From a virus: DNA of 23,703 nucleotides. Each line of letters opens with the position of its first letter. The first letter of the stretch is position 1. The position numbers and the translations under genes are program-made. Shown piece after piece: positions 2,348 through 22,267 of this stretch. The DNA lies in the IMG/VR virus record IMGVR_UViG_3300017767_005457, positions 1 to 23,703 of that record; one strand, 5' to 3'. The notes beneath the pieces are model-generated. The model was given only the letters and a program-made list of their open reading frames with translations, ran no database searches and had not been told where the DNA came from.

Positions 2348-3026
2348 GATATACTTCGAACAAACCAATCTAGCTACAACATTTAGTAATACTCGAGGCG
2401 AACTAAGTGCTAATTCATTAGAAGAGCTGCTACAGAGATACGAAGGTATGACTGTTAAGCAAGCACTAGATAAAGGACATACCGGTAGAGGGCCTCAATA
2501 TCTAGATCTCCTCTTACGCAATACACTAGAGTCACGCAGCGGTTTAGATATTCTAGATATGTCCGCAGACGAAGCTAATAATCTGCAAGACTTTATTAAG
2601 AAGCTCATCTTGTTTCTATTAAAGGATGTACGTCGTAATAATATGGCTCAAGATATCTCAGAAACAGATGAATTCAAAAGACAGCACAATTACGATGACT
2701 ATCTTAAAGCGAAAGACGTTGCAGTAGCTGGGAGAAGAAAGATAAGAGAGGAAATGTTAGCAGCTAAAGAAGCAGGTGACGAGGAAAGATATAGAGCTCT
2801 AAGAAGCGATATCACTAGTACTATAGGGGACTGGGAGAAAGAAACTGAATATGGTAAAGCTAGTGCACAGGCGTATAAAGAGAAACAAGAAAGAGATAAA
2901 GCTCTACAATTCAATACACCTATAACAGCAGAGTTTCTAAAAGATGATGGTTCAGATTATTATGGTGATTTAGCAGACGCTGCAGCTAGGATAGGTATTA
3001 AGTCTTCGAAGGTTATAGACGTTTAA
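2334..3026 (+). CDS. Helical phage protein, unknown function
   Basis: This 230-residue, mostly helical, charged protein begins MKSFKIYFEQ, a start much like the MKxFxxF peptides found on internal proteins of T4-like phages. Residues from about 120 to 190 are rich in Lys, Arg and Glu (KAKDVAVAGRRKIREEM...) and could form a long helix or coiled coil. The ATG lies inside the last codons of the preceding gene, so translation is probably coupled. The 3' end overlaps the ferredoxin gene by four bases in convergent orientation. No family is recognised. Confidence 0.7.
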   Translation: MKSFKIYFEQTNLATTFSNTRGELSANSLEELLQRYEGMTVKQALDKGHTGRGPQYLDLLLRNTLESRSGLDILDMSADEANNLQDFIKKLILFLLKDVRRNNMAQDISETDEFKRQHNYDDYLKAKDVAVAGRRKIREEMLAAKEAGDEERYRALRSDITSTIGDWEKETEYGKASAQAYKEKQERDKALQFNTPITAEFLKDDGSDYYGDLADAAARIGIKSSKVIDV

Positions 3027-3253
3027 CCATCATCTCCAATAGCATCTACAGGGCAACCTTCCAGCGCCTCTTTACACAACTCTTCTTCTTCTGCGTTAAC
3101 CGGTTGTTTATATACATACGAGTATCCCTCATCTTCATTCCGCGTAAAGTTGCTAGGTGCTGTCTCTCTACACGCATCACAATCTATACATTCCTCATCA
3201 ACATAATAAGTACCAGGTACATTTTCTTCATACTTATATTTTTTATCAGCCAT
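3023..3253 (-). CDS. Ferredoxin with a single Fe-S cluster
   Basis: This 76-residue ferredoxin has cysteines at C22, C25 and C28 (CIDCDAC) and C67 followed by Pro (EGCPVDAIG), the C-x2-C-x2-C...CP pattern that binds one [4Fe-4S] or [3Fe-4S] cluster; C60 is extra. It would act as a soluble electron carrier in the cytoplasm. The layout NVPGTYYVDEECIDCDACRETAP...EGYSYVYKQP recalls, from memory, ferredoxins of Verrucomicrobia and some deltaproteobacterial groups. I chose the start MADKKYK at 3253 because it sits five bases after CTAAATA; the ATG at 3283 would cover that box. It stands alone on the minus strand, convergent with the preceding gene. Its redox partner is not visible here. Confidence 0.85.
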   Translation of the reverse strand: MADKKYKYEENVPGTYYVDEECIDCDACRETAPSNFTRNEDEGYSYVYKQPVNAEEEELCKEALEGCPVDAIGDDG

Positions 3254-3258
3254 ATAAC

Positions 3259-3266
3259 TATTTAGT
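3259..3266 (-). promoter_or_regulatory. Late-like promoter box ACTAAATA (ferredoxin)
   Basis: Read on the minus strand this is ACTAAATA, then GTTAT, then the ATG at 3253. The CTAAATA form matches what I recall of late promoters in T4-like cyanophages. Confidence 0.6.
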
Positions 3267-3341
3267 TTATAATATAAGACCATCCAGAATTTTTTGGCCG
3301 AGTGATCTTCGATCGAAATAGTATAAAATGTATCTGTATTG

Positions 3342-6123: not shown

Positions 6124-7302
6124 ATGAGCGACGAAGATGTAACAAACGAAGAAGTAAAAGAGGATATTCCTGTATTAGATAGCATTCCAGATTTAGAAAT
6201 TCCAGATATTGATTTAGAAGATTTTGATATACCTGAGGAAGAAGAGACTGCAGTAGAAGACGAGTCTGGTGGTTCACAGATATTTGCATGGATAGGATCC
6301 GGACAAGGAGGAGGTAGAATTGCTAAAGCCTTCTACGATAGAGGTTATAAGAAGTGTTTAGCTGTTAATACATCGCACCACGATTTAGATGGTTTAGATA
6401 TTCCAGCTGCTCAAAAGCTTCTCTTAGATGTAGGTGAGCAAGGTGCTGGTAAAGATATGGAGAAAGGATATGAGGCTGCCAATAAGTATAAGCAGAATAT
6501 TTTTGATTTAATGCGTAAGGTATATGGTAATAATGTAAGCCATTTATATGTCTGCGTCGGAGCCGGTGGAGGAAGTGGTTCAGGTTCTTCTTTAGTACTA
6601 ATTGATATTGCTAAGAAGTATATGAAGTATATTGGACATGATAACCCAGACGAAAGAGTTGGTGTAGTAATGTCACTACCAACTAGAGGAGAAGCTACGT
6701 CTCCCTTAGTCTCCACTAATGCACATAAGGTTTTGAAGACAGTGGGTGAGTATGCAGAGAATGGTTCTATTTCACCTCTCCTTATTATTGATAATTCTAA
6801 AATTGAAAAGCTATATAGAGGTCTAACTGTTAAGCAATTTTGGCCTACAGTTAATAATACTATATCAGGCCTCTTTCATGTGTTCAATGTTCTAACGAGT
6901 AACCCATCACCATATACTTCATTTGACCCAACAGATTATTCAAGTGTATTAAGATGTGGTGGTGTCATGGTACTTGGTGTAGCTAAACTTAAAGAGTTTG
7001 ATGATGAGCAAAAGGTATCTGCTGCTATAAAGTCTAACTTAGAAAAGACATTATTAACTGATGTTGATTTAGCTGACGCAAAAGTTGCAGCTTGTGTAGC
7101 TATCGGTAGTAAAGAAATTATGGAAAATACTCCAGGTCTTATGGATAGCCTATCTTATGGCTTTGATACACTCGGATCTGTATGTCCTAAAGCTACTGTA
7201 CATAGAGGTATATATGAAGATAATAAAGATAGTCTTAGACTATACACTATAGTATCCGGATTAGATATTCCAAAGAAAAGGCTTCAACAGCTATCTTCAT
7301 AG
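6124..7302 (+). CDS. FtsZ/tubulin-like GTPase
   Basis: This is a 392-residue cytoskeletal GTPase of the FtsZ/tubulin superfamily. The N-terminal nucleotide site reads IGSGQGGGRIAKAF (57-70) and VNTSHHDLDGLD (81-92). The tubulin signature is GGGSGSG (148-154), with Ser in place of the usual Thr. The T7 synergy loop reads SFDPTDYSSVL (266-276) and keeps both aspartates (D268, D271) that stimulate GTP hydrolysis across the filament interface, followed by GGVMVLGVAK as in FtsZ. It should therefore polymerise and turn over GTP. An acidic tail of about 50 residues (DLEIPDIDLEDFDIPEEEE) precedes the fold; most relatives carry acidic tails at the C-terminus. Phage tubulins such as PhuZ centre and deliver phage particles in large phages. 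Whether this one spindles or affects host division is unknown. Confidence 0.85.
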   Translation: MSDEDVTNEEVKEDIPVLDSIPDLEIPDIDLEDFDIPEEEETAVEDESGGSQIFAWIGSGQGGGRIAKAFYDRGYKKCLAVNTSHHDLDGLDIPAAQKLLLDVGEQGAGKDMEKGYEAANKYKQNIFDLMRKVYGNNVSHLYVCVGAGGGSGSGSSLVLIDIAKKYMKYIGHDNPDERVGVVMSLPTRGEATSPLVSTNAHKVLKTVGEYAENGSISPLLIIDNSKIEKLYRGLTVKQFWPTVNNTISGLFHVFNVLTSNPSPYTSFDPTDYSSVLRCGGVMVLGVAKLKEFDDEQKVSAAIKSNLEKTLLTDVDLADAKVAACVAIGSKEIMENTPGLMDSLSYGFDTLGSVCPKATVHRGIYEDNKDSLRLYTIVSGLDIPKKRLQQLSS

Positions 7303-7340: not shown

Positions 7341-7739
7341 ATGAAAATTAAACTATTTGCGATAATCGCAGTATTAGCCGGGCTTGCAGTAGCAAGCGGT
7401 ACTCCTGAAAAGGAAGAAGGAAGAAAAGATCGTGGTAAGCCAGGTGTTAAACAGTGGATTGAAAAATTCGATAAAAATGGTGATGGTAAATTAGATGAAG
7501 CTGAGCGTAAAGAAGCCATGGCTGCTAGAAAAGCTGATTTTCTAAAGAGGTTTGATAAAGATGGAGATGGTAAGATTGGACCAGAAGAAAAGAAAGCTGC
7601 TGCTGAAGCTATGAAAAGACGTAGAGGCGGACCAAAGCCTGAAGGTAAACGTCCACGTCCAGATGGTAAAGGTAAAAGTAAAGGACCTAAAAAAGGTAAA
7701 GGACCTAAAAAAGGTAAAGGACCGGCGAAAAAAAAGTAA
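7341..7739 (+). CDS. Exported EF-hand protein with basic repeat tail
   Basis: This 132-residue protein has a Sec signal peptide (MKIKLFAIIAVLAGLAVASG, cleavage near 19-21) and two textbook EF-hand loops, DKNGDGKLDEAE (44-55) and DKDGDGKIGPEE (72-83), each with Asp at 1, 3 and 5 and Glu at 12 for calcium. The last 40 residues are very basic, with GPKKGK units encoded by an 18-bp tandem repeat (7680-7715 plus a partial third copy). Small secreted EF-hand proteins like this are abundant in Planctomycetes and Verrucomicrobia, so it looks host-derived. The basic tail could bind polyanions such as sulfated glycans, cell-wall polymers or nucleic acid. It is the last protein gene before the tmRNA. 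Confidence 0.85.
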   Translation: MKIKLFAIIAVLAGLAVASGTPEKEEGRKDRGKPGVKQWIEKFDKNGDGKLDEAERKEAMAARKADFLKRFDKDGDGKIGPEEKKAAAEAMKRRRGGPKPEGKRPRPDGKGKSKGPKKGKGPKKGKGPAKKK

Positions 7740-9893: not shown

Positions 9894-10367
9894 ATGAAAA
9901 AAGTAACTACATTACTCGCTGCAACTGCTCTTGCGTTTGCGGCCCTTGTTGGACCCGCTGCAGCAGCAACTGTAGCAGGTGTGGAACTTACCGATTATAG
10001 TGTCGGAGTAACCAAAAAAGATGGCGACTTCAATCTTGTAGTTGGTACTACAGCTCCTATTGCCCTTGCAGGTGTAGAGGTTGATCTTAAGCCAGCTGTT
10101 GGCTTTGGTAATGGTGATATTAACTTCGATCTTGGTGCATCTTATGATGTAACAGAAGTTTTTGGAACCACAGTCTCTGCTATTGGAGGTCTCGGACTTA
10201 ATTGGATCGAAACTGATGATATAGAGCTCGACATTCGAGCTGGAGCTGGTGTATCGTATGAAGTTGGAGATGGTAAATCTGTCTTTGCTACATACACATT
10301 TGGCTACAATTTTGAAGCTGAAGATAATGATACAGAGCTTAGGCTTGGAGTATCATTTGAGTTTTAA
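9894..10367 (+). CDS. Small outer-membrane beta-barrel protein
   Basis: This 157-residue protein has a clear Sec signal peptide (MKKVTTLLAATALAFAALVG, cleaved after PAAA near 25), so it goes to the periplasm. The mature part is a run of alternating amphipathic strands (YSVGVTKKDGDFNLVVG, VEVDLKPAVGFGNGDINFDLG and so on), enough for about eight strands. It ends LRLGVSFEF, with the C-terminal Phe recognised by the BAM machinery, like OmpX/OmpA-type barrels. Codon use is GC-richer than its neighbours (32 of 60 bases G or C in 9901-9960), suggesting a bacterial origin. A strong terminator follows. A phage-made barrel could mask receptors or block superinfection; this is inference. Confidence 0.82.
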   Translation: MKKVTTLLAATALAFAALVGPAAAATVAGVELTDYSVGVTKKDGDFNLVVGTTAPIALAGVEVDLKPAVGFGNGDINFDLGASYDVTEVFGTTVSAIGGLGLNWIETDDIELDIRAGAGVSYEVGDGKSVFATYTFGYNFEAEDNDTELRLGVSFEF

Positions 10368-10387
10368 TTTAACCTAATAACCCTCAC

Positions 10388-10421
10388 AAAAAACGCTCTT
10401 GGAAACAGGAGCGTTTTTTTT
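10388..10421. terminator. Bidirectional intrinsic terminator
   Basis: AAAAAACGCTC (10388-10398) and GAGCGTTTTTTT (10409-10420) form a GC-rich five-pair core flanked by an A-tract and a T-tract. It would terminate the barrel gene on the plus strand and the DUF1501 gene on the minus strand; the DUF1501 stop codon overlaps it. Confidence 0.9.
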
Positions 10422-11622
10422 ATGCCAAGATATCTTTAATTATATTACCTTTATTAGCTACCTTAAACGGTCGTCCGTTAGGAGAGAAGATTTCTTTTTC
10501 TGTCTGTATGCCTAATAAGTGAGCTATAGTAACATTAATATCAGATATGGTATAAGGATCTTTAGTTACTTTAGAAGCTGATTTATTTGTCTCCCCTGCT
10601 ACATAACCACCTTTAACACCAGCGCCTATAAGCACAGTTGAATAACATGATGGGTGATGATCTCTACCCTCGTTAACATTTATTTTCGGGGTTCTACCAA
10701 ACTCTGTTACCAGTGCTATTAATGTTGTATCTAATAGACCTTCACTGTCTAAATCTAAAATTAAAGCACTTAAAGCGTCATCTACTTCTTTAAGTTTATT
10801 ATCTAATTTAGTAAAGTTATCTACATGGGTATCCCAGCCTCCATTGTTTATTTCAATAAACTTAATATCCCCTTTAATAAGTCTTTTAGCTAATAAACAA
10901 CCTTGACCTAATTTTGTATCACCGTATCTAGATCTAGCAGCTGGATTCTCTTTTGTTAAATCAAATAATTCTAAATCTTTAGATTTTAAAAATCTAACTG
11001 TATTATCGTAAAATTGATTATACTCTGAAGCTAGAGGCGCTTTTAAATTACTGTTAAGCTCTCTTAGTATACGCATTCTTTCTTGTAGTTTATTATCTAT
11101 TTTAGAGTTTTTTAACCCACCGTTAGGATCGATAATTGGTAATGGTGATTTTACTTTCGGTAAGAAACCGGAATTAGGATGTGCAGATGAACCAGAAATT
11201 AAAACATAATCTGGTATATCTTTTTTTCTATCTTGTATATGAGCTACCCAAGAACCTAAGCTAGGATGTACTATAGAACCTATCTGTCTATATGATGTTC
11301 TGTTTAAATATTGAGCTTGTTCATGCGCTCCTGTTTTAGACTTTGTTGATCTAATAATAGACATCTTATCTACTACTTCTGCTAGTTTAGGTAAACGACT
11401 GCCTAATTCTATACCACTAACATTAGTACTTATTTTAGTAGTATCTCCCATTATTTCTTTATCATCTTTAGGATCAAATGAATCAATATGACTCATTCCT
11501 CCATCTAAGCAAATATAAATTATATTTTTAGCTTTAGAAGCTATAGGTATATCATTAGCATCTAATGTCTTTAGACCGTAAGTAGATGCTGCTAAGGTTT
11601 GTATAAATGCTCTTCTGTTCAT
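10420..11622 (-). CDS. DUF1501 protein with Tat-like signal
   Basis: This 400-residue DUF1501 protein has an alkaline-phosphatase-superfamily fold and is typical of Planctomycetes, Verrucomicrobia and Lentisphaerae. It opens with a twin-arginine-like signal (MNRRAFIQTLAAS). Family motifs are CLDGGMSHIDSFDPK (38-52), GGWDTH (261-266), EFGRTP (307-312) and GRDHHP (319-324), with metal-binding-type His and Asp residues. The length is close to the family norm and nothing is missing, so it should be functional. The reaction is not known; it probably acts in the periplasm on sugar- or sulfate-containing substrates together with DUF1549/DUF1553 partners. Its ATG overlaps the stop of the upstream DUF1549 gene (TAATG), the gene order found in bacterial operons. 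I know of no described phage example. Confidence 0.9.
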   Translation of the reverse strand: MNRRAFIQTLAASTYGLKTLDANDIPIASKAKNIIYICLDGGMSHIDSFDPKDDKEIMGDTTKISTNVSGIELGSRLPKLAEVVDKMSIIRSTKSKTGAHEQAQYLNRTSYRQIGSIVHPSLGSWVAHIQDRKKDIPDYVLISGSSAHPNSGFLPKVKSPLPIIDPNGGLKNSKIDNKLQERMRILRELNSNLKAPLASEYNQFYDNTVRFLKSKDLELFDLTKENPAARSRYGDTKLGQGCLLAKRLIKGDIKFIEINNGGWDTHVDNFTKLDNKLKEVDDALSALILDLDSEGLLDTTLIALVTEFGRTPKINVNEGRDHHPSCYSTVLIGAGVKGGYVAGETNKSASKVTKDPYTISDINVTIAHLLGIQTEKEIFSPNGRPFKVANKGNIIKDILA

Positions 11623-13364
11623 TAGCTTATAAGTTTAAATTCGTGCGTGTTAATTAATACCCATACAATATCTTCAAAGCTAGAGTCTTTAAATAATTCT
11701 CTCTCTTTATCGTTTGGAGCTCTACCTATATATGATATAAAAATAACGTTTATATCTATATTTTTATCCATGTCTTTTGCTTTATTAGCAACATACCCAC
11801 TATTATTTTGTAATGCTTTTGTAACATTACCATTCATTAAATTTAAAATTTGAGTTATATTAGGTTGTTCATTTCCTGTCTCTATTAATTCTCTATCTGA
11901 CCTACCAAACTCTCTCATAAAGTTTGCATTTTTACCTTCAAAAATTTGTGAAGATCTAACTACAAGATGACCTTTAATTTTAGGTGCACCTTCATAATAA
12001 CTACCTCTTATTTTTCTATATTCATCCCATTTCTTTAATGCTTGTGAAGCAGTAATAGACTCTAAATTAGAAAATAGAGTTATATAATCTTCTTTTCTAT
12101 CTTTTGGATACCATTTATCCGGGTCTCCTTGATATAATGTTATAATAGAATCCCAAAGCTGTGCACTTGTCATTCTTCTTAAAACTGGACCTCTAAAGCT
12201 ATTTTCAGGATCTGTTTTACTTTGATAAAATTTTGTATTATATAGTATAGAATTAAACTTTTTTAAATCATAATCTACCTCTTTAATTACGCTTATAAGA
12301 TATTCAGTCAATCTTAAATTTCGGCCTTCTTTAAGCTCGTCAAATAAAGCTACTTCATTTAAATTATCTATTAAAGGAAATCCAAACGATCTATCCCATA
12401 ATCGATTAACTATATTAGCTGCAAACGTTGGATGATTATCGCTTATAATCCAATTAGCAAAATTATCTCTTAGCCCTTGTCTCTTACGCTTTTCTTTTAC
12501 TCTATCACCTAAGGCAGTCTCAGCCTTAACTGTCTCCCCAGGCTCTCCGTCCCTATACTTATAATCATCAGGTAGTTTGAGCCTTTTGTCCTGCTCTTCA
12601 ACTATTGTATGTTGATAGCCATGTCGATAGAATTGACCCACAACATTTATAGCTCCTTTTTTCTTACCAGCTTTATCCAATTCTTCAGCTTCTTTTTTTA
12701 ATCTCTGAAACTGTTTTCTATTTTCTTTACTACCTCTTGTATTTAACTGAGTAAAAAAAGCAGTCATATTATAATAATCCATTTGAGTCCAGTCATCAAA
12801 AGGATGATCATGACATTGTGCACAATTAATATTCATGCCTGCGAAGGCTTGAAATGTGTTACTTACGTTATCGAGTAACATACCTTCATCTCTGAGAAAA
12901 TAACCAACTTCAGGATTTTCCCATATATTGCCTTTAGCAGTTAATAACTTTTTAATAAATTCATCATATGCTGTATTACCTTCAATCTGCTGCTTAACCC
13001 AGCTTATATATGTATCACCATCTATATTATTAGATAATCTTCTTTTTATACGTAATAAATCAGCATAAAAGTTAAACATACTTTCAGTATATCCTTTTGA
13101 ATTTTGTAAATCTTCAATTAGTTTTTTACGATCAGGTCTTCTTAGAAATTTTATAGTCTCATCATATGTAGGTATTCTCCCTACTATATCTAAATAAGCA
13201 CGTCTAACAAAAACAAAACTAGATGCCACGACCGGCATCTCTACTTTTCTATTCTTTAAATCTTGTGCTATTAACTTATCAATCTCTCTGCTATGATTAA
13301 CTACATCATTAGCAATAACGTTAGAGCAGAGTATACATAAAAATATTGTTATAGCTTTCACCAT
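11622..13364 (-). CDS. DUF1549/DUF1553 exported protein with CxxCH motif
   Basis: This 580-residue protein has a Sec signal peptide (MVKAITIFLCILCSNVIAND). The DUF1549 domain shows RRAYLDIVGRIPTYDE (54-69) and CAQCHDHPFDDWTQMDYY (181-198), where CAQCH is a haem-c-like CxxCH. The DUF1553 domain follows (NRLWDRSFGFPLIDNLNE; QPNITQILNLMNG; YIGRAPNDKERE). In PVC bacteria such proteins are encoded by the dozen next to DUF1501 and sulfatase genes and are linked to polysaccharide breakdown, but the biochemistry is not settled. It is somewhat short because extra N-terminal cytochrome or carbohydrate-binding domains are absent. It is the first gene of a two-gene unit, its start preceded by CATAAATA with the usual five-base gap. 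The late-type box suggests it is adapted to phage expression rather than a chance host fragment. Confidence 0.92.
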   Translation of the reverse strand: MVKAITIFLCILCSNVIANDVVNHSREIDKLIAQDLKNRKVEMPVVASSFVFVRRAYLDIVGRIPTYDETIKFLRRPDRKKLIEDLQNSKGYTESMFNFYADLLRIKRRLSNNIDGDTYISWVKQQIEGNTAYDEFIKKLLTAKGNIWENPEVGYFLRDEGMLLDNVSNTFQAFAGMNINCAQCHDHPFDDWTQMDYYNMTAFFTQLNTRGSKENRKQFQRLKKEAEELDKAGKKKGAINVVGQFYRHGYQHTIVEEQDKRLKLPDDYKYRDGEPGETVKAETALGDRVKEKRKRQGLRDNFANWIISDNHPTFAANIVNRLWDRSFGFPLIDNLNEVALFDELKEGRNLRLTEYLISVIKEVDYDLKKFNSILYNTKFYQSKTDPENSFRGPVLRRMTSAQLWDSIITLYQGDPDKWYPKDRKEDYITLFSNLESITASQALKKWDEYRKIRGSYYEGAPKIKGHLVVRSSQIFEGKNANFMREFGRSDRELIETGNEQPNITQILNLMNGNVTKALQNNSGYVANKAKDMDKNIDINVIFISYIGRAPNDKERELFKDSSFEDIVWVLINTHEFKLIS

Positions 13365-13369
13365 AACAA

Positions 13370-13377
13370 TATTTATG
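13370..13377 (-). promoter_or_regulatory. Late-like promoter box CATAAATA (DUF1549 operon)
   Basis: On the minus strand CATAAATA, then TTGTT, then the ATG at 13364. Confidence 0.65.
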
Positions 13378-13394
13378 TGTCTTTAATGTATAAA

Positions 13395-13535
13395 CTACTT
13401 ATCTCGACGTTTTGATCTACCGCCTTGTCCACGGTATTTTTTATGTCCTTTAGAATTTCTACTAATACCTTGTCTAGTTTTTTTAGGTTTTTTATCGCTT
13501 ACTTTCCAAGAAGGAGTATTACTTTGTTTTGCCAT
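13395..13535 (-). CDS. 46-aa highly basic protein
   Basis: This 46-residue frame (MAKQSNTPSWKVSDKKPKKT, then RQGISRNSKGHKKYRGQGGR, ending SKRRDK) has about a third Lys plus Arg. It starts inside the 3' end of the preceding gene (13519-13719), so it is probably translated by coupling. The KKYRGQG tail recalls small basic proteins common in marine T4-like phages and, more loosely, small ribosomal proteins. RNA, DNA or ribosome binding is likely from composition alone; no family is assigned. Confidence 0.65.
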   Translation of the reverse strand: MAKQSNTPSWKVSDKKPKKTRQGISRNSKGHKKYRGQGGRSKRRDK

Positions 13536-13719
13536 ATGTATATATTTTACCTTCTTCTGTTACTATTGCAACATCTCCATTTTCATCCCAGTACGCGCTA
13601 GCTGAAATTTTATTTGTAGATAAGATGTTAATTTTTTCTTGTGCTTCTAAAAACTTACGACCTGCACTCTTTGCCCACATTTTAAGATCTTGTGGAAAGA
13701 TATATTCAAGATTCTTCAT
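13519..13719 (-). CDS. 66-aa phage protein, unknown
   Basis: This 66-residue protein has a helical first half (MKNLEYIFPQDLKMWAKSAG) and a beta-rich second half (ASAYWDENGDVAIVTEEGKI) ending YTYGKTK. It overlaps the upstream gene by 14 bases and the downstream basic-protein gene by 17 bases, a chain typical of coupled translation. An open frame on the opposite strand here is a shadow. No function is recognised. Confidence 0.65.
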   Translation of the reverse strand: MKNLEYIFPQDLKMWAKSAGRKFLEAQEKINILSTNKISASAYWDENGDVAIVTEEGKIYTYGKTK

Positions 13720-13912
13720 CTAGTTTATCATAATGAAGACCATCATTACCATTTTGACCTATAACATTCATACGGATTTCTGCTTCTTTTTCTTCTTCTT
13801 CAGTCATAGATAACTCCTCTATGTCATCTTTTTTACCAAATATAGCTTCATATCTATCACTATATTCTTTATACGAAACAGAAAGCGGTCGTGGTGTATC
13901 TCCTTTACTCAT
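13706..13912 (-). CDS. 68-aa conserved phage protein (MSKGDxPRP type)
   Basis: It begins MSKGDTPRPLSVSYKEYSDR, followed by YEAIFGKKDD. The MSKGxxxRP...Y...(W/Y)(D/E)xIFGKK pattern is, from memory, very common among short hypothetical phage proteins. No function is known. The C-terminal half is acidic (MTEEEEKEAEIRMN). It is the first gene of a three-gene minus-strand unit, and its start follows a TATAATAT box by five bases. Confidence 0.75.
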   Translation of the reverse strand: MSKGDTPRPLSVSYKEYSDRYEAIFGKKDDIEELSMTEEEEKEAEIRMNVIGQNGNDGLHYDKLDEES

Positions 13913-13917
13913 ATAGT

Positions 13918-13925
13918 ATATTATA
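13918..13925 (-). promoter_or_regulatory. Promoter-like box TATAATAT
   Basis: On the minus strand TATAATAT, then ACTAT, then the ATG at 13912. Confidence 0.4.
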
Positions 13926-13947
13926 CTATATCTACTCTAGTACTCAA

Positions 13948-14202
13948 CTACTTGCCTGAAGTAGGCTTAAAGTAGAGCTGTCTTTCAAGTTTTCTAAAAC
14001 GAGTATCAGAATGCCACACTTCATCTGTCTGAGGTGTGTATACACCATCTTTACTTTGAATCGGTATCCCCTTCGACAGATTTAAGGTAGAAGGCTGATA
14101 GATGTTCAAGGTGCCGCTTTTCGTCGAGGAGCTCGTCCCGCAAGATGTCAGCCCTATCATTAGAATTGACGTCGCCAGCAGTGCGTAATGTTTCAATTTC
14201 AT
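13948..14202 (-). CDS. Outer-membrane lipoprotein, o-spanin-like (Rz1-like)
   Basis: This 84-residue protein has a lipoprotein signal: basic start MKLKHY, hydrophobic ALLATSILMIG and lipobox LTSC with the lipidated Cys at 21. The mature part is Ser/Thr/Pro-rich, as in outer-membrane spanin subunits. Its first 152 bases lie out of frame inside the 3' part of the 14051-14323 gene, the Rz/Rz1 type of overlap. With the holin-like and amidase genes nearby, a role in disrupting the outer membrane at lysis is likely. It would also imply a host with an outer membrane. Confidence 0.75.
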   Translation of the reverse strand: MKLKHYALLATSILMIGLTSCGTSSSTKSGTLNIYQPSTLNLSKGIPIQSKDGVYTPQTDEVWHSDTRFRKLERQLYFKPTSGK

Positions 14203-14323
14203 TTATTAATTTTTTCTGTTTATCTCTAGACTCAGTGACTACGCGATGATAATGTGTTTTATTCCTTAGTTCTAAATAAGCAACTAAAGCACGTAACACG
14301 CCTTTTATCAAACCCCCAGCCAT
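14051..14323 (-). CDS. i-spanin-like (Rz-like) helical protein
   Basis: This 90-residue protein has a moderately hydrophobic N-terminus (MAGGLIKGVLRALVAYLELR) and a charged helical, coiled-coil-like body (KQKKLINEIETLRTAG; ILRDELLDEKRHLEHLSAFY). Inner-membrane spanins have one N-terminal membrane helix and a periplasmic coiled coil. This one fits in shape and in its overlap with the lipoprotein gene, but its membrane helix is weak, so the call is tentative. It follows the holin-like gene by six bases. Confidence 0.6.
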   Translation of the reverse strand: MAGGLIKGVLRALVAYLELRNKTHYHRVVTESRDKQKKLINEIETLRTAGDVNSNDRADILRDELLDEKRHLEHLSAFYLKSVEGDTDSK

Positions 14324-14329
14324 GGTTAA

Positions 14330-14590
14330 TTATTTTTTAGTAGCTTTCTTTTTAGTAGCTTTTTTAAGCACATCAGTAACTGCACCTTTTACAGTCTCTT
14401 CAGCAACAGCTTTTGCTTTTGCTTTACCGATATTAAGAGCTAGAAATTCTACCGCTTTATAAGCTTTAGAAAACCAAGTACCTTCTTTCGGGGTTGGAGT
14501 TGCTGCACAAAAAGCAGCTGCTGCAGCAATAATTGCAGCTACTAGACCAAACCAAGGTTTGTCACTAATGAATTCAAGTATCATATCCAT
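14330..14590 (-). CDS. Holin-like small membrane protein
   Basis: This 86-residue protein has an N-terminal membrane helix (WFGLVAAIIAAAAAFCAATP, about 13-32), a conserved-looking TPTPKEGTWFSKAYK stretch followed by an amphipathic segment (VEFLALNIGKAKA), and a very basic tail ending KKATKKKATKK. The TPTPK...KxYKxxxxLALNxGKAK pattern is common in small phage membrane proteins next to endolysins, often annotated as holins. It starts a minus-strand unit with the two spanin-like genes and is divergent from the amidase gene. Confidence 0.7.
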   Translation of the reverse strand: MDMILEFISDKPWFGLVAAIIAAAAAFCAATPTPKEGTWFSKAYKAVEFLALNIGKAKAKAVAEETVKGAVTDVLKKATKKKATKK

Positions 14591-14643: not shown

Positions 14644-15384
14644 ATGTCATTAACAGATACAACTAAAAAAATTCAAGAAGCTGTAGGTGCTACAGCTGAT
14701 GGTGTTTACGGAAAAAATACCGCGTTAAAGATTATAGGTAAATTAGGATTTACTAAAGAAGATCTTACTAAAATTATTCAGAAAAAAACTGATTCCCTTC
14801 CTGATGGTGCTTATGGACCTAACACAGCAAAAACTATTTCAGAAGCATTAGGCTTAAGTAAAGAACCCGCAGTGGTTGAGGTCACATCAAGTGCCGTCGA
14901 TGGAACATATCCTGAAGTTAGTAAGCCTTCTCCTAATATATCATCTTCTAGAATTAGACCTGAAGGGGTAGTATTACACCATTCTTCAGGTTCTTATGCT
15001 GGGTCTGTAAGCTGGATATGTCAATCAAAGTCTCAAGTATCATATCACTGTATTATTGATACTAACGGTGAACGAACAGTATTTGCAGATGATGACCGTA
15101 GATGCTGGCATGCAGGTAAATCTAGCTTTAATGGCAGAACTAACTGCAACGGTTTCTTGTTAGGGTTATCTTTTAGTGGTAATACCCATACAAGAGAATT
15201 AACAGATGATGAAGTATCATCAGCAGTAGAATGGTTACTACCAAGATTTGAAAAATGGGGCTGGCCAACAGATCTTTCTACTGTAACTACACATAGAGAG
15301 ATTTCACCTGGGAGAAAAGATGATCCTGATGCTCGTTCGGAAAATAAAATTAAGAGTGCATTACAAGCAGCTTTAAATAAATAA
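14644..15384 (+). CDS. Endolysin: N-acetylmuramoyl-L-alanine amidase
   Basis: It cleaves the bond between MurNAc and L-Ala in peptidoglycan to release phage at lysis. Two peptidoglycan-binding repeats occupy residues 5-70 (TADGVYGKNTA and LPDGAYGPNTA). The Amidase_2/PGRP-like domain follows from about 105: LHHSSG (111-116), SYHCII (133-138), CWHAGKSS (154-161) and THREISPGRKDDP (216-228). The zinc ligands are likely one of H112/H113, H217 and D227, as in AmpD. There is no signal peptide, so it needs the holin-like protein encoded divergently. At 246 residues it is a normal modular endolysin. Confidence 0.92.
   Translation: MSLTDTTKKIQEAVGATADGVYGKNTALKIIGKLGFTKEDLTKIIQKKTDSLPDGAYGPNTAKTISEALGLSKEPAVVEVTSSAVDGTYPEVSKPSPNISSSRIRPEGVVLHHSSGSYAGSVSWICQSKSQVSYHCIIDTNGERTVFADDDRRCWHAGKSSFNGRTNCNGFLLGLSFSGNTHTRELTDDEVSSAVEWLLPRFEKWGWPTDLSTVTTHREISPGRKDDPDARSENKIKSALQAALNK
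15376..15383 (+). promoter_or_regulatory. Late-like promoter box AATAAATA
   Basis: AATAAATA overlaps the end of the amidase gene; then ATTAT and the ATG at 15389. Confidence 0.6.
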
Positions 15385-18310: not shown

Positions 18311-19957
18311 ATGAAAAATTATAGCTGGCTTAATGCTGATTCAAGAAAATTTCTTAAGAGGGGGTACTTAGAAGGAGAAGAAACTGCAGAAGAAAGAATT
18401 GAAACAATAGCTAAGACAGCTGAGAAGTATTTAAATATTAAAGGGTTTGCTGATAAATTTATTGACTATATGTCAAGAGGTTATTACTCTCTATCTTCTC
18501 CCATATGGTCAAATTTTGGTAAAGAGAGGGGGTTACCTATTTCTTGCTTTGGTAGTTTTATTCCTGATGATATGGAAAAAATTCTTACTAAAGTATCTGA
18601 GATAGGAACTATGTCTAAAGTAGGAGGTGGTACTTCTGGTTATTTTGGAGCAGTTAGACATAGAGGTGCGCCTATCTCATCAGGAGGAACAGCCACCGGT
18701 GTACATCATCAACTAACCGTGTTTGATGCTCTAATAAACTATGTTTCACAAAGCAATGTTAGACGTGGATCATTTGCAGCTTACTTACCAGTAGATCATA
18801 AAGATATCGAAGAGTTTATGCGTATTAGATCTGAAGGCGATCCTATTCAAGACTTATCTTTCGGAGTTTGCATTACTGATGAATGGATGCAATCTGTAGT
18901 AGATGGAGATAAAGATAAACGTAAGCTTTGGGCTAAGATTATTAAAAAGAGATATGAAACAGGCTATCCATATATCTTTTGGACGGATACAGCAAACAAT
19001 AACGCTCCTCAAGTCTATAAAGATAAAAATAAAAAGATACATGCCAGTAACCTTTGTACAGAAATTTTCTTATCTACAGATGAAGATGAATCTTTTGTTT
19101 GTGATTTATCATCAATTAATTTAGCTCTCTGGGATGATCTTAAAGAGACAGACGCAATAGAAACATTAGTTTACTTTTTAGATGCTGTAATGTCTGAATT
19201 TATTCAAAAGACAGAGGGAGTTAGATATATGGAAGCTCCTCATAACTTTGCTGTAAGGCAAAGAGCATTAGGTGTAGGTGTTCTAGGATGGCATTCATAT
19301 CTTCAATCTAAAATGATAGCGTTTGAATCCTTAGCAGCTAAAGGTATCAATCAAGAAATATTTGTATTGATGAAAGATAGATGTGATAAAGCAACATCTG
19401 ATCTAGCAAAAGAGTTTGGCGAGCCAGAATTATGTAAGGGTTATGGAATTCGTAATTCAACTACTATGGCTATTGCTCCTACTACTAGTAGTTCATTTAT
19501 TCTAGGTCAAATATCACCATCAGTTGAACCTTTAAACTCTAACTACTTTGTAAAAGATTTAGCTAAAGGTAAATTTACTTATCGTAATCCACATCTTGTA
19601 AAATTATTAAAAGAAAAAGATAAAGATGACCCAACTACATGGAAAAGTATCTTAACACACGGAGGTAGTGTTCAACATTTAAAGTTTTTATCCGAAGAAG
19701 AAAAAGATGTTTTTAAGACTTTTGGAGAGATATCTCAAAAAGAAATTATTATTCAAGCCGCAATGAGACAAAAATATATTGACCAAGGTCAATCTCTAAA
19801 CTTAATGATACCACCTAATACAAAGCCGCGTGAAGTTAACGAATTGTTAATTTATGCCTGGCAAAGTGGAATTAAGTCATTATACTATCAGAGAAGCGCT
19901 AACCCTGCTCAAGAGTTAGCTCGTAATATTCTTAATTGTGCATCATGTCAAGGTTAA
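18311..19957 (+). CDS. nrdA: Ribonucleotide reductase class I alpha subunit
   Basis: This is the catalytic large subunit reducing ribonucleoside diphosphates. Active-site residues are C79 (ISCFGSF), N247, C249 and E251 (SNLCTEIFL), C264 (CDLSSINL), the radical-path tyrosines Y525-Y526 (SLYYQRSANPAQE) and the C-terminal redox pair C543 and C546 (CASCQG). It has 548 residues against 761 in E. coli because the N-terminal ATP-cone is missing, so it should lack dATP feedback inhibition, a common phage trait. The ATG at 18311 lies one base after the nrdB stop; the ATG at 18287 would overlap nrdB and is less likely. Its 3' end overlaps the carbamoyltransferase gene by 13 bases. Confidence 0.94.
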   Translation: MKNYSWLNADSRKFLKRGYLEGEETAEERIETIAKTAEKYLNIKGFADKFIDYMSRGYYSLSSPIWSNFGKERGLPISCFGSFIPDDMEKILTKVSEIGTMSKVGGGTSGYFGAVRHRGAPISSGGTATGVHHQLTVFDALINYVSQSNVRRGSFAAYLPVDHKDIEEFMRIRSEGDPIQDLSFGVCITDEWMQSVVDGDKDKRKLWAKIIKKRYETGYPYIFWTDTANNNAPQVYKDKNKKIHASNLCTEIFLSTDEDESFVCDLSSINLALWDDLKETDAIETLVYFLDAVMSEFIQKTEGVRYMEAPHNFAVRQRALGVGVLGWHSYLQSKMIAFESLAAKGINQEIFVLMKDRCDKATSDLAKEFGEPELCKGYGIRNSTTMAIAPTTSSSFILGQISPSVEPLNSNYFVKDLAKGKFTYRNPHLVKLLKEKDKDDPTTWKSILTHGGSVQHLKFLSEEEKDVFKTFGEISQKEIIIQAAMRQKYIDQGQSLNLMIPPNTKPREVNELLIYAWQSGIKSLYYQRSANPAQELARNILNCASCQG

Positions 19958-21636
19958 AAAATAAAATTAAAGGAACAAATATACTCAGTCTTTATCTTAG
20001 CCATGATACAGCTGCAACTTATATAGATAAAAATAACAAATTAAAAGTATTAGAGTATGAAAGATTTGTAAAGCAGCGTTATGGTAGCTTTACAAAAACA
20101 ATGGAGAATAGAGAAGGTTTAGGCACTACTGATTTACAGAGAAGATCTTTCTTAGAGTATATAAAAGAGGATTTAAAAGGTGAAATTAAACTTATTCTAC
20201 ATTCTGATCCTGCTTTAAATAATAACGATGAGGATTTAAATGATAAAGAATTAATAAAAGAATTTTTTCCTAATGCTAAATATCTTTTAATGCTTCATCA
20301 TGAAGCACATGCTGCTAGTGGCTTTTATACTTCTAACTTTAACGACGCAGTTATATTATCATTTGACGGAGGAGGTCTAGATATTGAAGTAGATGCTGAA
20401 GAGGATATAGAAGACGAAAAAATTTCTCAAACTACTACCTATACGAAGGTGTTTGTTGGTAGTAATAACACTATTAAATCTGTAGGTAAATCTAATATGT
20501 CTCTAGGTATACCATATGGTCACCTAGCTAAATGTATCTCAGAAATTAAAGCAGGTCCGGATTGCGATGAAAACTCATTAGTATACTCAGGTAAAATAAT
20601 GGGATTATGTGGTTATGGTCATATTAAAGAAGAGTGGGTTAAGCCTATGATAACATATTATGAAAGTGGGGATTATTACGGTGATAAAGATGCTCTATAT
20701 AGATTAGGAAAAGAGATAGGTTTAGATTTAGGAATTAATAAAATAAAAGGTCAAGTAGGTTACGATTTAGCTGCAACTTCACAATACGTATTTGAAATGT
20801 TTGCTTCTGATATTATTCAAGAAGTAATTAATAAAGAACGTGAATTATCAGGTAAATTTAAAAATATAATATTAGTAGGGGGATGTGCTTTAAATGTTTT
20901 GTTTAATCAGTCATTAGCTAAAGACCTTAAAAAACATAATCTCGAATTATACGTACCCGCCTATCCTAATGACTGTGGGTTAGCGCTAGGTCAGTTTTTA
21001 AATTATACTAGAGCAAGAGTAACCGGTGACCCATACATAGGTTTTGATATTTTAGATAGAGATAAATTTGATACATATAAAAAAGAACGCAATGCAAAAA
21101 AATGTGATATTGTTAAGTTAGTAGATCTTATTAAAGATGGTAAAATTATTGGCATCTTGCAAGGTCAATCGGAAATAGGTCCTAGAGCTCTAGGTAATAG
21201 AAGTATAATATGTGACCCTTCTATTAAAGATATGAAAGATATTCTTAACTCTAAAGTAAAATTTAGAGAGTGGTATAGACCTTTTGCACCAGTTTGTAGA
21301 TTGGAAGATAGTGAAACGTATTTTGACGATGTATTTGAATCAAAGTATATGAGTTTCGCTCCTACAGTTAAGAAACAATATAGAGAAATTTTACCATCAA
21401 TTACACATATTGATGGTACTGCTAGATTACAAACAGTAAAAGAAGAAGATCATAAGTTGTTTTATGATATACTAACAGAGCTTAAAAAACGAGATGAAAT
21501 ACCTGTTATATTGAATACATCATTTAATATGAAAGGTTATCCTATTTTAACTACTATAGAAGATGCATTAAAAGTGTTGGATGAAACTGAAATGGATTAT
21601 GTCTATGTTGAAGGTTACCTATTTACAAAAAAATAA
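19945..21636 (+). CDS. NodU/CmcH-type O-carbamoyltransferase
   Basis: This 563-residue protein transfers a carbamoyl group from carbamoyl phosphate, via carbamoyl-AMP, to a hydroxyl of a small acceptor. The N-terminal Kae1-like domain has LSHDTAATYI, the metal-binding LHHEAHAASGF (H118 or H119 with H122), SFDGGG (139-144), NMSLGIPYGHL and VGGCALNVLFN. The C-terminal YrdC-like domain contains QGQSEIGPRALGNRS near 405-419 and FREWYRPFAPV. All hallmark motifs are intact. ATG 19945 is preferred to the TTG at 19936. Its place directly behind nrdA suggests the acceptor could be a modified nucleotide, making a carbamoylated DNA base; a glycan or nucleotide sugar is the alternative. Confidence 0.9.
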   Translation: MSRLKNKIKGTNILSLYLSHDTAATYIDKNNKLKVLEYERFVKQRYGSFTKTMENREGLGTTDLQRRSFLEYIKEDLKGEIKLILHSDPALNNNDEDLNDKELIKEFFPNAKYLLMLHHEAHAASGFYTSNFNDAVILSFDGGGLDIEVDAEEDIEDEKISQTTTYTKVFVGSNNTIKSVGKSNMSLGIPYGHLAKCISEIKAGPDCDENSLVYSGKIMGLCGYGHIKEEWVKPMITYYESGDYYGDKDALYRLGKEIGLDLGINKIKGQVGYDLAATSQYVFEMFASDIIQEVINKERELSGKFKNIILVGGCALNVLFNQSLAKDLKKHNLELYVPAYPNDCGLALGQFLNYTRARVTGDPYIGFDILDRDKFDTYKKERNAKKCDIVKLVDLIKDGKIIGILQGQSEIGPRALGNRSIICDPSIKDMKDILNSKVKFREWYRPFAPVCRLEDSETYFDDVFESKYMSFAPTVKKQYREILPSITHIDGTARLQTVKEEDHKLFYDILTELKKRDEIPVILNTSFNMKGYPILTTIEDALKVLDETEMDYVYVEGYLFTKK

Positions 21637-21637
21637 T

Positions 21638-22267
21638 ATGAAATGGAAATATATAAATCAAGATGAAGCTCAAGACGATCAACAAGAGCAAAGTAATCCA
21701 CAATACATTATTAATGCAGCTCCTTCGTCTGCAGGAGCAGTAACTAGAAGTATAGAAAATAATTTATATTTTTATGGTGATATTACTGAAGCTAATGCAT
21801 TAGAGTTAAACGCTGCCTTATATGAAGTAGATAAAAAACTCTCAATTACTAACGTATTTTTAGATATTAAACCTGTTATAAATTTACATCTAAATTCTTA
21901 CGGTGGTTCGTTATTTGCCGGTTTAGCTACAGTAGACGTAATTAGAAATTTAAACAGTAATGTACATTCTATTATTGAAGGTGCTGCTGCTTCAGCTGCT
22001 ACTATTATATCAGTAGTTTGTAATAAAAGATCTATGGGTAAGTATTCAAAGATGCTTATACATCAACTAAGTTCGGGTGCTTATGGAAAGTATAATGAAC
22101 TAGAAGATGATATGGAAAATAATAAACATCTTATGCAAACTATAAAATCTATCTATAGGGAATATACCAACGTTCCTATGAAAAAATTAGATGAGATTCT
22201 TAAACACGATCTTTGGTTTGATAGTGAGACGTGTTTAAATTTAGGCTTAGTAGATGAAGTTAATTAA
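21638..22267 (+). CDS. ClpP-like serine protease (S14)
   Basis: This 209-residue ClpP-fold protease has the catalytic triad S119 (EGAAASAATI), H142 (LIHQLSSG) and D191 (KHDLWF); LNSYGGSLFAG (85-95) supplies the oxyanion glycine pair, and GLVDEV closes the fold. The first 35 residues are a polar, Gln-rich extension (NQDEAQDDQQEQSN). Phage ClpP-like enzymes are often prohead maturation proteases, but this gene sits in the nucleotide-metabolism operon, so it might instead work with a Clp ATPase. ATG 21638 lies one base after the carbamoyltransferase stop. The 3' end overlaps the convergent structural gene by four bases. Confidence 0.88.
   Translation: MKWKYINQDEAQDDQQEQSNPQYIINAAPSSAGAVTRSIENNLYFYGDITEANALELNAALYEVDKKLSITNVFLDIKPVINLHLNSYGGSLFAGLATVDVIRNLNSNVHSIIEGAAASAATIISVVCNKRSMGKYSKMLIHQLSSGAYGKYNELEDDMENNKHLMQTIKSIYREYTNVPMKKLDEILKHDLWFDSETCLNLGLVDEVN

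Follow-up and report, generated by a model that had tools for sequence, protein, structure and literature searches.

A PVC-type DUF1549/DUF1553 and DUF1501 gene pair carried by large marine phages

The gene pair, its signals and its neighbors

The window analyzed here is a 23,703 nt (23.7 kb) stretch of viral DNA (IMG/VR record IMGVR_UViG_3300017767_005457), and its minus strand carries two complete genes, a DUF1549/DUF1553 (PSCyt2-PSD1) gene at 11622-13364 followed by a DUF1501 gene at 10420-11622. The 580 aa product of the first has a hydrophobic, Sec-type N-terminus and a CAQCH (CxxCH) motif at residues 181-185, and matches Pfam families DUF1549 (PF07583, E = 2e-38, 132.9 bits) and DUF1553 (PF07587, 4.5e-19, 69.3 bits), both above cut-off and in family order. 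The 400 aa DUF1501 protein matches PF07394 over residues 31-399 (9.9e-97, 325 bits against a cut-off of 27) and is a predicted hydrolase of the alkaline phosphatase superfamily. Its N-terminus, MNRRAFIQTLAAS, is of the twin-arginine (RR-x-F) type, with R3, R4 and F6 invariant across 19 sequences, so that predicted export signals, one Sec-type and one twin-arginine, are found at the starts of the two proteins. The genes meet at a TAATG stop-start junction (11620-11624, minus strand) with one base in common, and in most sister contigs the junction is either TAATG or a spacing of 0-4 nt. An octamer of the T4 late promoter type, CATAAATA, lies at 13370-13377 (minus strand), 5 nt (TTGTT) ahead of the ATG at 13364, and a terminator-like hairpin followed by a U run is found 3' of DUF1501 (10380-10425, minus strand; -14.4 kcal/mol, z -2.94). 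A previous sequence-only reading of this DNA had given the same coordinates, strand, gene order and junction, all of which are correct, and had recognized a PVC-type pair in bacterial order, in agreement with the Pfam families and with the placement of both proteins inside PVC sequences (see below).

In marine T4-like cyanophages, the motif NATAAATA serves as the late promoter (PMC2984593). Of the 13 boxes that the window has no more than 40 nt from a start codon, 12 sit 5-6 nt before it, and in the sister genome the same holds for 34 of 42 (the raw count was 38 of 47, but five cases had been doubled by overlapping pieces, and four of the five were at 5-6 nt). Since NATAAATA is not enriched overall (105 sites compared to about 172 in Markov shuffles), it is the placement before starts that is non-random. 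Genes preceded by a late box include those for the portal, tail sheath, amidase, lysozyme and a holin-like protein. Ahead of DUF1549, the box is found at the same distance in most sisters despite differing surrounding sequence, and is absent in L030 and L031. The earlier description of a phage-style start box is upheld by this recurrence and spacing. Both features of a T4-type late transcription unit are present, NATAAATA at a fixed distance and, in the sister genome, a member of the late sigma family phrog_234, and the assignment of a late promoter to the pair is well supported by these sequence features. A scan for sigma-70 promoters gave no excess over shuffles. In T4, the late box lies at about -13 to -6; with the same geometry, transcription would begin at the start codon itself, so that this phage may produce leaderless messages late in infection.

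Upstream of the pair, and on the same strand, is a putative lysis cassette that is common to the window group. It begins with a gene for a holin-like small membrane protein (14330-14590, minus strand; phrog_9685), which has its own late box, followed by a candidate inner-spanin (Rz)-like gene (14051-14323, minus strand) encoding an N-terminal hydrophobic stretch and a coiled-coil-like region, an overlapping gene in another frame for a candidate outer-spanin (Rz1)-like lipoprotein with an LTSC lipobox (13948-14202, minus strand), and then small genes and the pair. The positions of the two spanin-like genes are conserved, and neither they nor the holin-like gene gave a significant match to any profile of known function. 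Diverging from the start of the cassette is the gene for an N-acetylmuramoyl-L-alanine amidase endolysin (14644-15384, plus strand; PF01510, 1.1e-18), which has a late box, as do the genes for a phage lysozyme (8673-9491, plus strand; PF00959) and for an outer-membrane-barrel-like exported protein (9894-10367, plus strand; OMP_b-brl 0.0027, below the cut-off).

Similar arrangements are seen in other T4-like contigs. L018 has, in order, holin-like, Rz-like and Rz1-like genes, a small membrane protein, a Phage_lysozyme2 protein (PF18013, 7.2e-31) directly upstream of the pair, DUF1549/1553, DUF1501 and a second DUF1501. In the L025/L026 group, the pair follows a lysozyme of this type (for L026, on the basis of a matching PHROG pattern), near baseplate-like genes. 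Spanin-like genes adjoin the pair in L022/L023 and L027, are found together with an amidase upstream of it in L034, and lie downstream of it in L239, where an NlpC/P60 protein is encoded directly upstream. L031 has no lysis gene next to the pair. In most T4-like contigs, then, the pair appears to lie in or beside a lysis cassette, with the spanin and holin roles assigned from sequence features and gene position. In L026, the reading frame directly after DUF1501 (12931-14412, plus strand) encodes a long tandem cysteine repeat, CGSCPSSSATI, and has no Pfam match.

Several other features of this DNA were observed. Shine-Dalgarno motifs are rare at starts with or without a box, both window-wide and in L137-L144 and L016, where NATAAATA boxes likewise lie 5-6 nt ahead of start codons, as might be expected of leaderless late messages. 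A Tubulin/FtsZ-family protein (6124-7302, plus strand; PF00091, 1.8e-10) has a 91% identical relative in L175/L176 and was undetected in most other sisters, while an exported EF-hand protein with a basic tail and a late box (7341-7739, plus strand) is conserved in most sisters, and a ferredoxin-like small protein on the opposite strand (3023-3283, minus strand) shows up to 84% identity in sisters. A member of the ClpP-like head maturation protease family and a Nol-like carbamoyltransferase are found at 21581-22267 and 19936-21636 (both plus strand). The phage tmRNA (7854-8263, plus strand; RF00023, 125.9 bits) has an unusually long predicted tag of 32 aa, similar in sisters.

Phage carriage, ancestry and hosts

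More than 20 further viral contigs have the pair, adjacent and in the same order, at 53-92% identity, and long synteny is shared by most of them. The longest close sister contig (170.9 kb) encodes a gp20 portal (3e-97), a gp23 capsid protein (1e-86), tail sheath and baseplate proteins, and the phrog_234 late sigma factor family member (1e-25); these T4-like structural markers belong to the sister, the window itself being a fragment that lacks them. The search of viral metagenomes for the two families beside capsid genes, proposed by the sequence-only reading, thus found them together many times, and in the 171 kb contig along with gp23. Because these are signature families of PVC bacteria, an assembly chimera or a bacterial island has to be considered, but the flanking genes and the late box are those of a phage, and the arrangement recurs in many independent contigs from different samples and in separate phage clades. 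This explanation is rejected, its probability being negligible, and carriage of the pair by phages is well supported as real. In L033, DUF1549 is at the contig end and PHROGs leave the phage status of the contig undecided. Neither protein had a match among the 50,697 annotated phages of INPHARED or in any PHROG family, and no phage example of the pair was found in the open-access papers searched, so that, as had been suspected, the pair is new in phages as far as these collections and papers show.

Pairwise dN/dS values of about 0.02-0.10 for both genes indicate strong purifying selection, a conclusion that is well supported. Residues that are invariant in bacterial relatives (positions at least 93% conserved) are largely kept by the phage proteins, 44 of 48 in DUF1501 and 32 of 33 in DUF1549/1553, which bears out the earlier view that both genes are full length with their motifs intact. 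Among the kept residues are S44, H45, D47, H100, D264, H266, E307 and H322 of DUF1501, and the CxxCH motif, of which C181, C184 and H185 are invariant in 21 aligned viral DUF1549/1553 sequences. A single CxxCH is found within the aligned span of all bacterial (70/70) and phage (30/30) sequences.

Comparison with host copies places the T4-like phages as a single clade within PVC (Planctomycetes-Verrucomicrobia) sequences in both gene trees. The inner branching is also alike, with L178 splitting off first, then L031, then the rest, and such congruence argues that the pair travelled as a unit. The DUF1501 proteins of this clade show at most 42-47% identity to the nearest bacterial copies found and, together with the long stem of the clade, this leads us to reject a recent transfer into the phage. 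The pair of L178, at the same locus, is much diverged, its DUF1501 having 55% identity compared to 83-92% for the amidase and NrdB. Three relatives (L175, L176 and L177, of which L175 and L176 look near-identical) have the same lysis cassette and no pair, and some relatives can evidently do without it.

Phage-alignment searches revealed a second phage group (L225-L234 and L265-L289, with records up to 222 kb). Most of these have a terminase large-subunit match and lack gp23, and the pair is present in order in nearly all; one record, when checked, proved to contain terminase and tail genes. In both trees the group is a clade of its own (support 98-99), with bacterial sequences nearer to it than the T4-like clade is; the trees were built quickly, with SH-aLRT as the only measure of support, and the deeper forks parting the two phage clades have values of about 80-85. 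The topology suggests that this second, non-gp23 group captured the pair independently, and that large marine phages have taken it over repeatedly and kept it under selection.

The phage pairs share with those of PVC bacteria (Rhodopirellula, Verrucomicrobiota) the same families, gene order, single CxxCH and nearly all invariant residues, but differ in having a phage late box and a deep clade of their own. There is usually one pair per phage contig, whereas a Roseibacillus MAG has 51 DUF1501 matches (one lies on a contig of phage origin), and the phage form appears compact, lacking the PSCyt1-type region that is read beside DUF1501 in several hosts.

Evidence for the host comes from L018, where a second, bacterial-type DUF1501 (12936-14357, plus strand) overlaps the end of the phage DUF1501. 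Over its full length it has 72-77% identity to one gene that is shared by many genomes of the family (Verrucomicrobiota) to which the Roseibacillus MAG belongs, while other genomes in a phylum-wide sample reach no more than 51%. In several genomes the verrucomicrobial ortholog appears to have a large DUF1549-type gene as its neighbor, and the L018 copy is best read as a separate acquisition into the same operon. Its closeness to the verrucomicrobial gene points to a verrucomicrobial host for L018 and, by extension, for the clade, so that PVC bacteria of the Verrucomicrobiota are most likely the hosts of the T4-like clade. In the Roseibacillus contig PBAI01000036, about 4.9 kb of phage-type DNA (GC about 0.33) abuts the chromosome (GC about 0.55), the border being the 3' end of a tRNA-Sec gene. 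The junction may reflect integration, a shared tRNA or a chimera and, as the contig contains ambiguous bases and could be chimeric, it was set aside as proof of the host and gives only a hint. At this border (L135 4400-5100), the tRNA-Sec 3' end is followed by CCATAAAGGAACT, and the same sequence follows the 3' end of the tmRNA in the window. Two other host markers were tried: the barrel-like gene matched only the Roseibacillus phage-bearing contig among 241 genomes, and the tmRNA had matches in 60 of 60 family genomes searched.

Predicted fold and chemistry

A sequence search of solved structures gave no significant match for either protein of the pair. The DUF1501 model is weak (mean pLDDT 49), as the alignment behind it consists of close relatives. 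The Foldseek matches listed for it include YejM, sulfatases, LtaS and related enzymes, and in VIA-align the best match of this low-confidence model was ENPP6 (Z 9.8, rmsd 5.1, 211 residues), with YejM (9.1), PafA (8.2), autotaxin and sulfatases also found; essentially all of the VIA-align matches listed are members of the alkaline phosphatase superfamily. One sister DUF1501 has a weak match to PF01663. The low-confidence model thus resembles alkaline-phosphatase/sulfatase-superfamily enzymes (ENPP, PafA, S1 sulfatases, YejM/PbgA, LtaS), although DUF1501 differs from these in having no significant sequence match to solved structures, and the eight invariant Ser, His, Asp and Glu residues named above are compatible with metal-dependent ester hydrolysis. 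The DUF1549/1553 model is better overall (pLDDT 77), with the CxxCH region (residues 180-188) poorly modelled. Its only significant structural match is in the C-terminal part, to phycobilisome-linker domains, and is low (Z 6.6, 66 residues); a sister protein has a DUF4214 match in the same part. A redox role has been guessed for bacterial relatives (PMC2754498), and for the phage pair such a role, for instance as a c-type cytochrome with covalently bound haem, would be based solely on the invariant CxxCH motif.

Possible roles in infection

Because the pair is late and is usually found beside lysis genes, it may well help to open or strip the unusual envelope of the host. Our tentative preference, plausible if somewhat short of probable, is for an exported pair of PVC origin that, at a late stage, acts on surface glycans or the envelope of the host and aids lysis in marine phages of PVC bacteria. 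Late in infection, DUF1501 would be exported through the Tat pathway of the host and DUF1549/1553 through Sec. The sequence-only reading had suggested effects on host surface glycans, envelope redox chemistry or debris polysaccharides, suggestions that stay conjectural here. DUF1501 would then act as a metal-dependent phospho- or sulfo-ester hydrolase on glycans or lipids of the envelope or surface, with the CxxCH protein as its partner in binding or electron transfer, and the pair would weaken or strip an outer envelope layer before holin, endolysin and spanins complete lysis and the virions leave. Late expression, neighborhood and predicted export are shared with phage lysis cassettes (holin, endolysin, Rz/Rz1 spanins), but the pair consists of two enzyme-like proteins rather than a holin, endolysin or spanin, and we know of no proteins of this kind in any lysis system. 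A wider proposal, that PVC phages possess a further type of lysis factor, composed of a CxxCH protein and an alkaline-phosphatase-like hydrolase, for breaching an envelope layer peculiar to PVC bacteria, is possible but doubtful.

The setting of the pair in the second phage group, where it adjoins ribonucleotide reductase or sugar-nucleotide genes and not lysis genes, implies that a lysis role need not be universal. The lack of a neighboring lysis gene in L031, and of the pair itself beside the cassette of L175, L176 and L177, also counts against the preferred reading. The same setting favors auxiliary metabolic genes that supply the infected cell with phosphate, sulfate or sugars from seawater glycans, as do the suggested carbohydrate role of bacterial copies, which are reported to occur near sulfatase genes (PMC5615132), and, for Lentisphaerae (a PVC relative), a proposal that phages change the polysaccharide metabolism of their hosts (PMC11361711). 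Like auxiliary metabolic genes, the pair is of host type and has been kept by phages; unlike them it has no assigned pathway, and in the T4-like clade its late promoter and usual linkage to lysis genes would be late for feeding a cell, so we regard this role as unlikely. Remodelling of the cell surface, by which the pair would remove or alter the capsule or the phage receptor, keeping progeny from sticking to debris and excluding other phages, fits the predicted export of both proteins, the adjacent phage gene for a barrel-like outer membrane protein with its late box, and the divergence of the L178 pair, as expected of host-adaptive genes. Against it, active-site-like residues are conserved, with no known receptor, capsule or substrate, and we consider it rather improbable. 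A late promoter is also common to structural genes and could indicate a virion-associated enzyme used in adsorption, such as a tail depolymerase, but export signals on both proteins would be unusual for virion proteins, Pfam finds no tail or receptor-binding domains, and this option is very improbable.

Few protein families of PVC bacteria have expanded as much as DUF1501, DUF1549 and DUF1553, yet none of the three has an assigned function. The compact phage pair, maintained under selection, offers a minimal version with a defined time and setting of expression, which makes function testable, and together with the verrucomicrobial DUF1501 of a sister phage it is of use in linking large uncultured marine phages to their hosts. 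If the wider proposal of an additional lysis factor is true, it would also reveal what the many DUF1501/DUF1553 pairs of PVC bacteria normally do, namely the processing of the envelope or of surface glycans.
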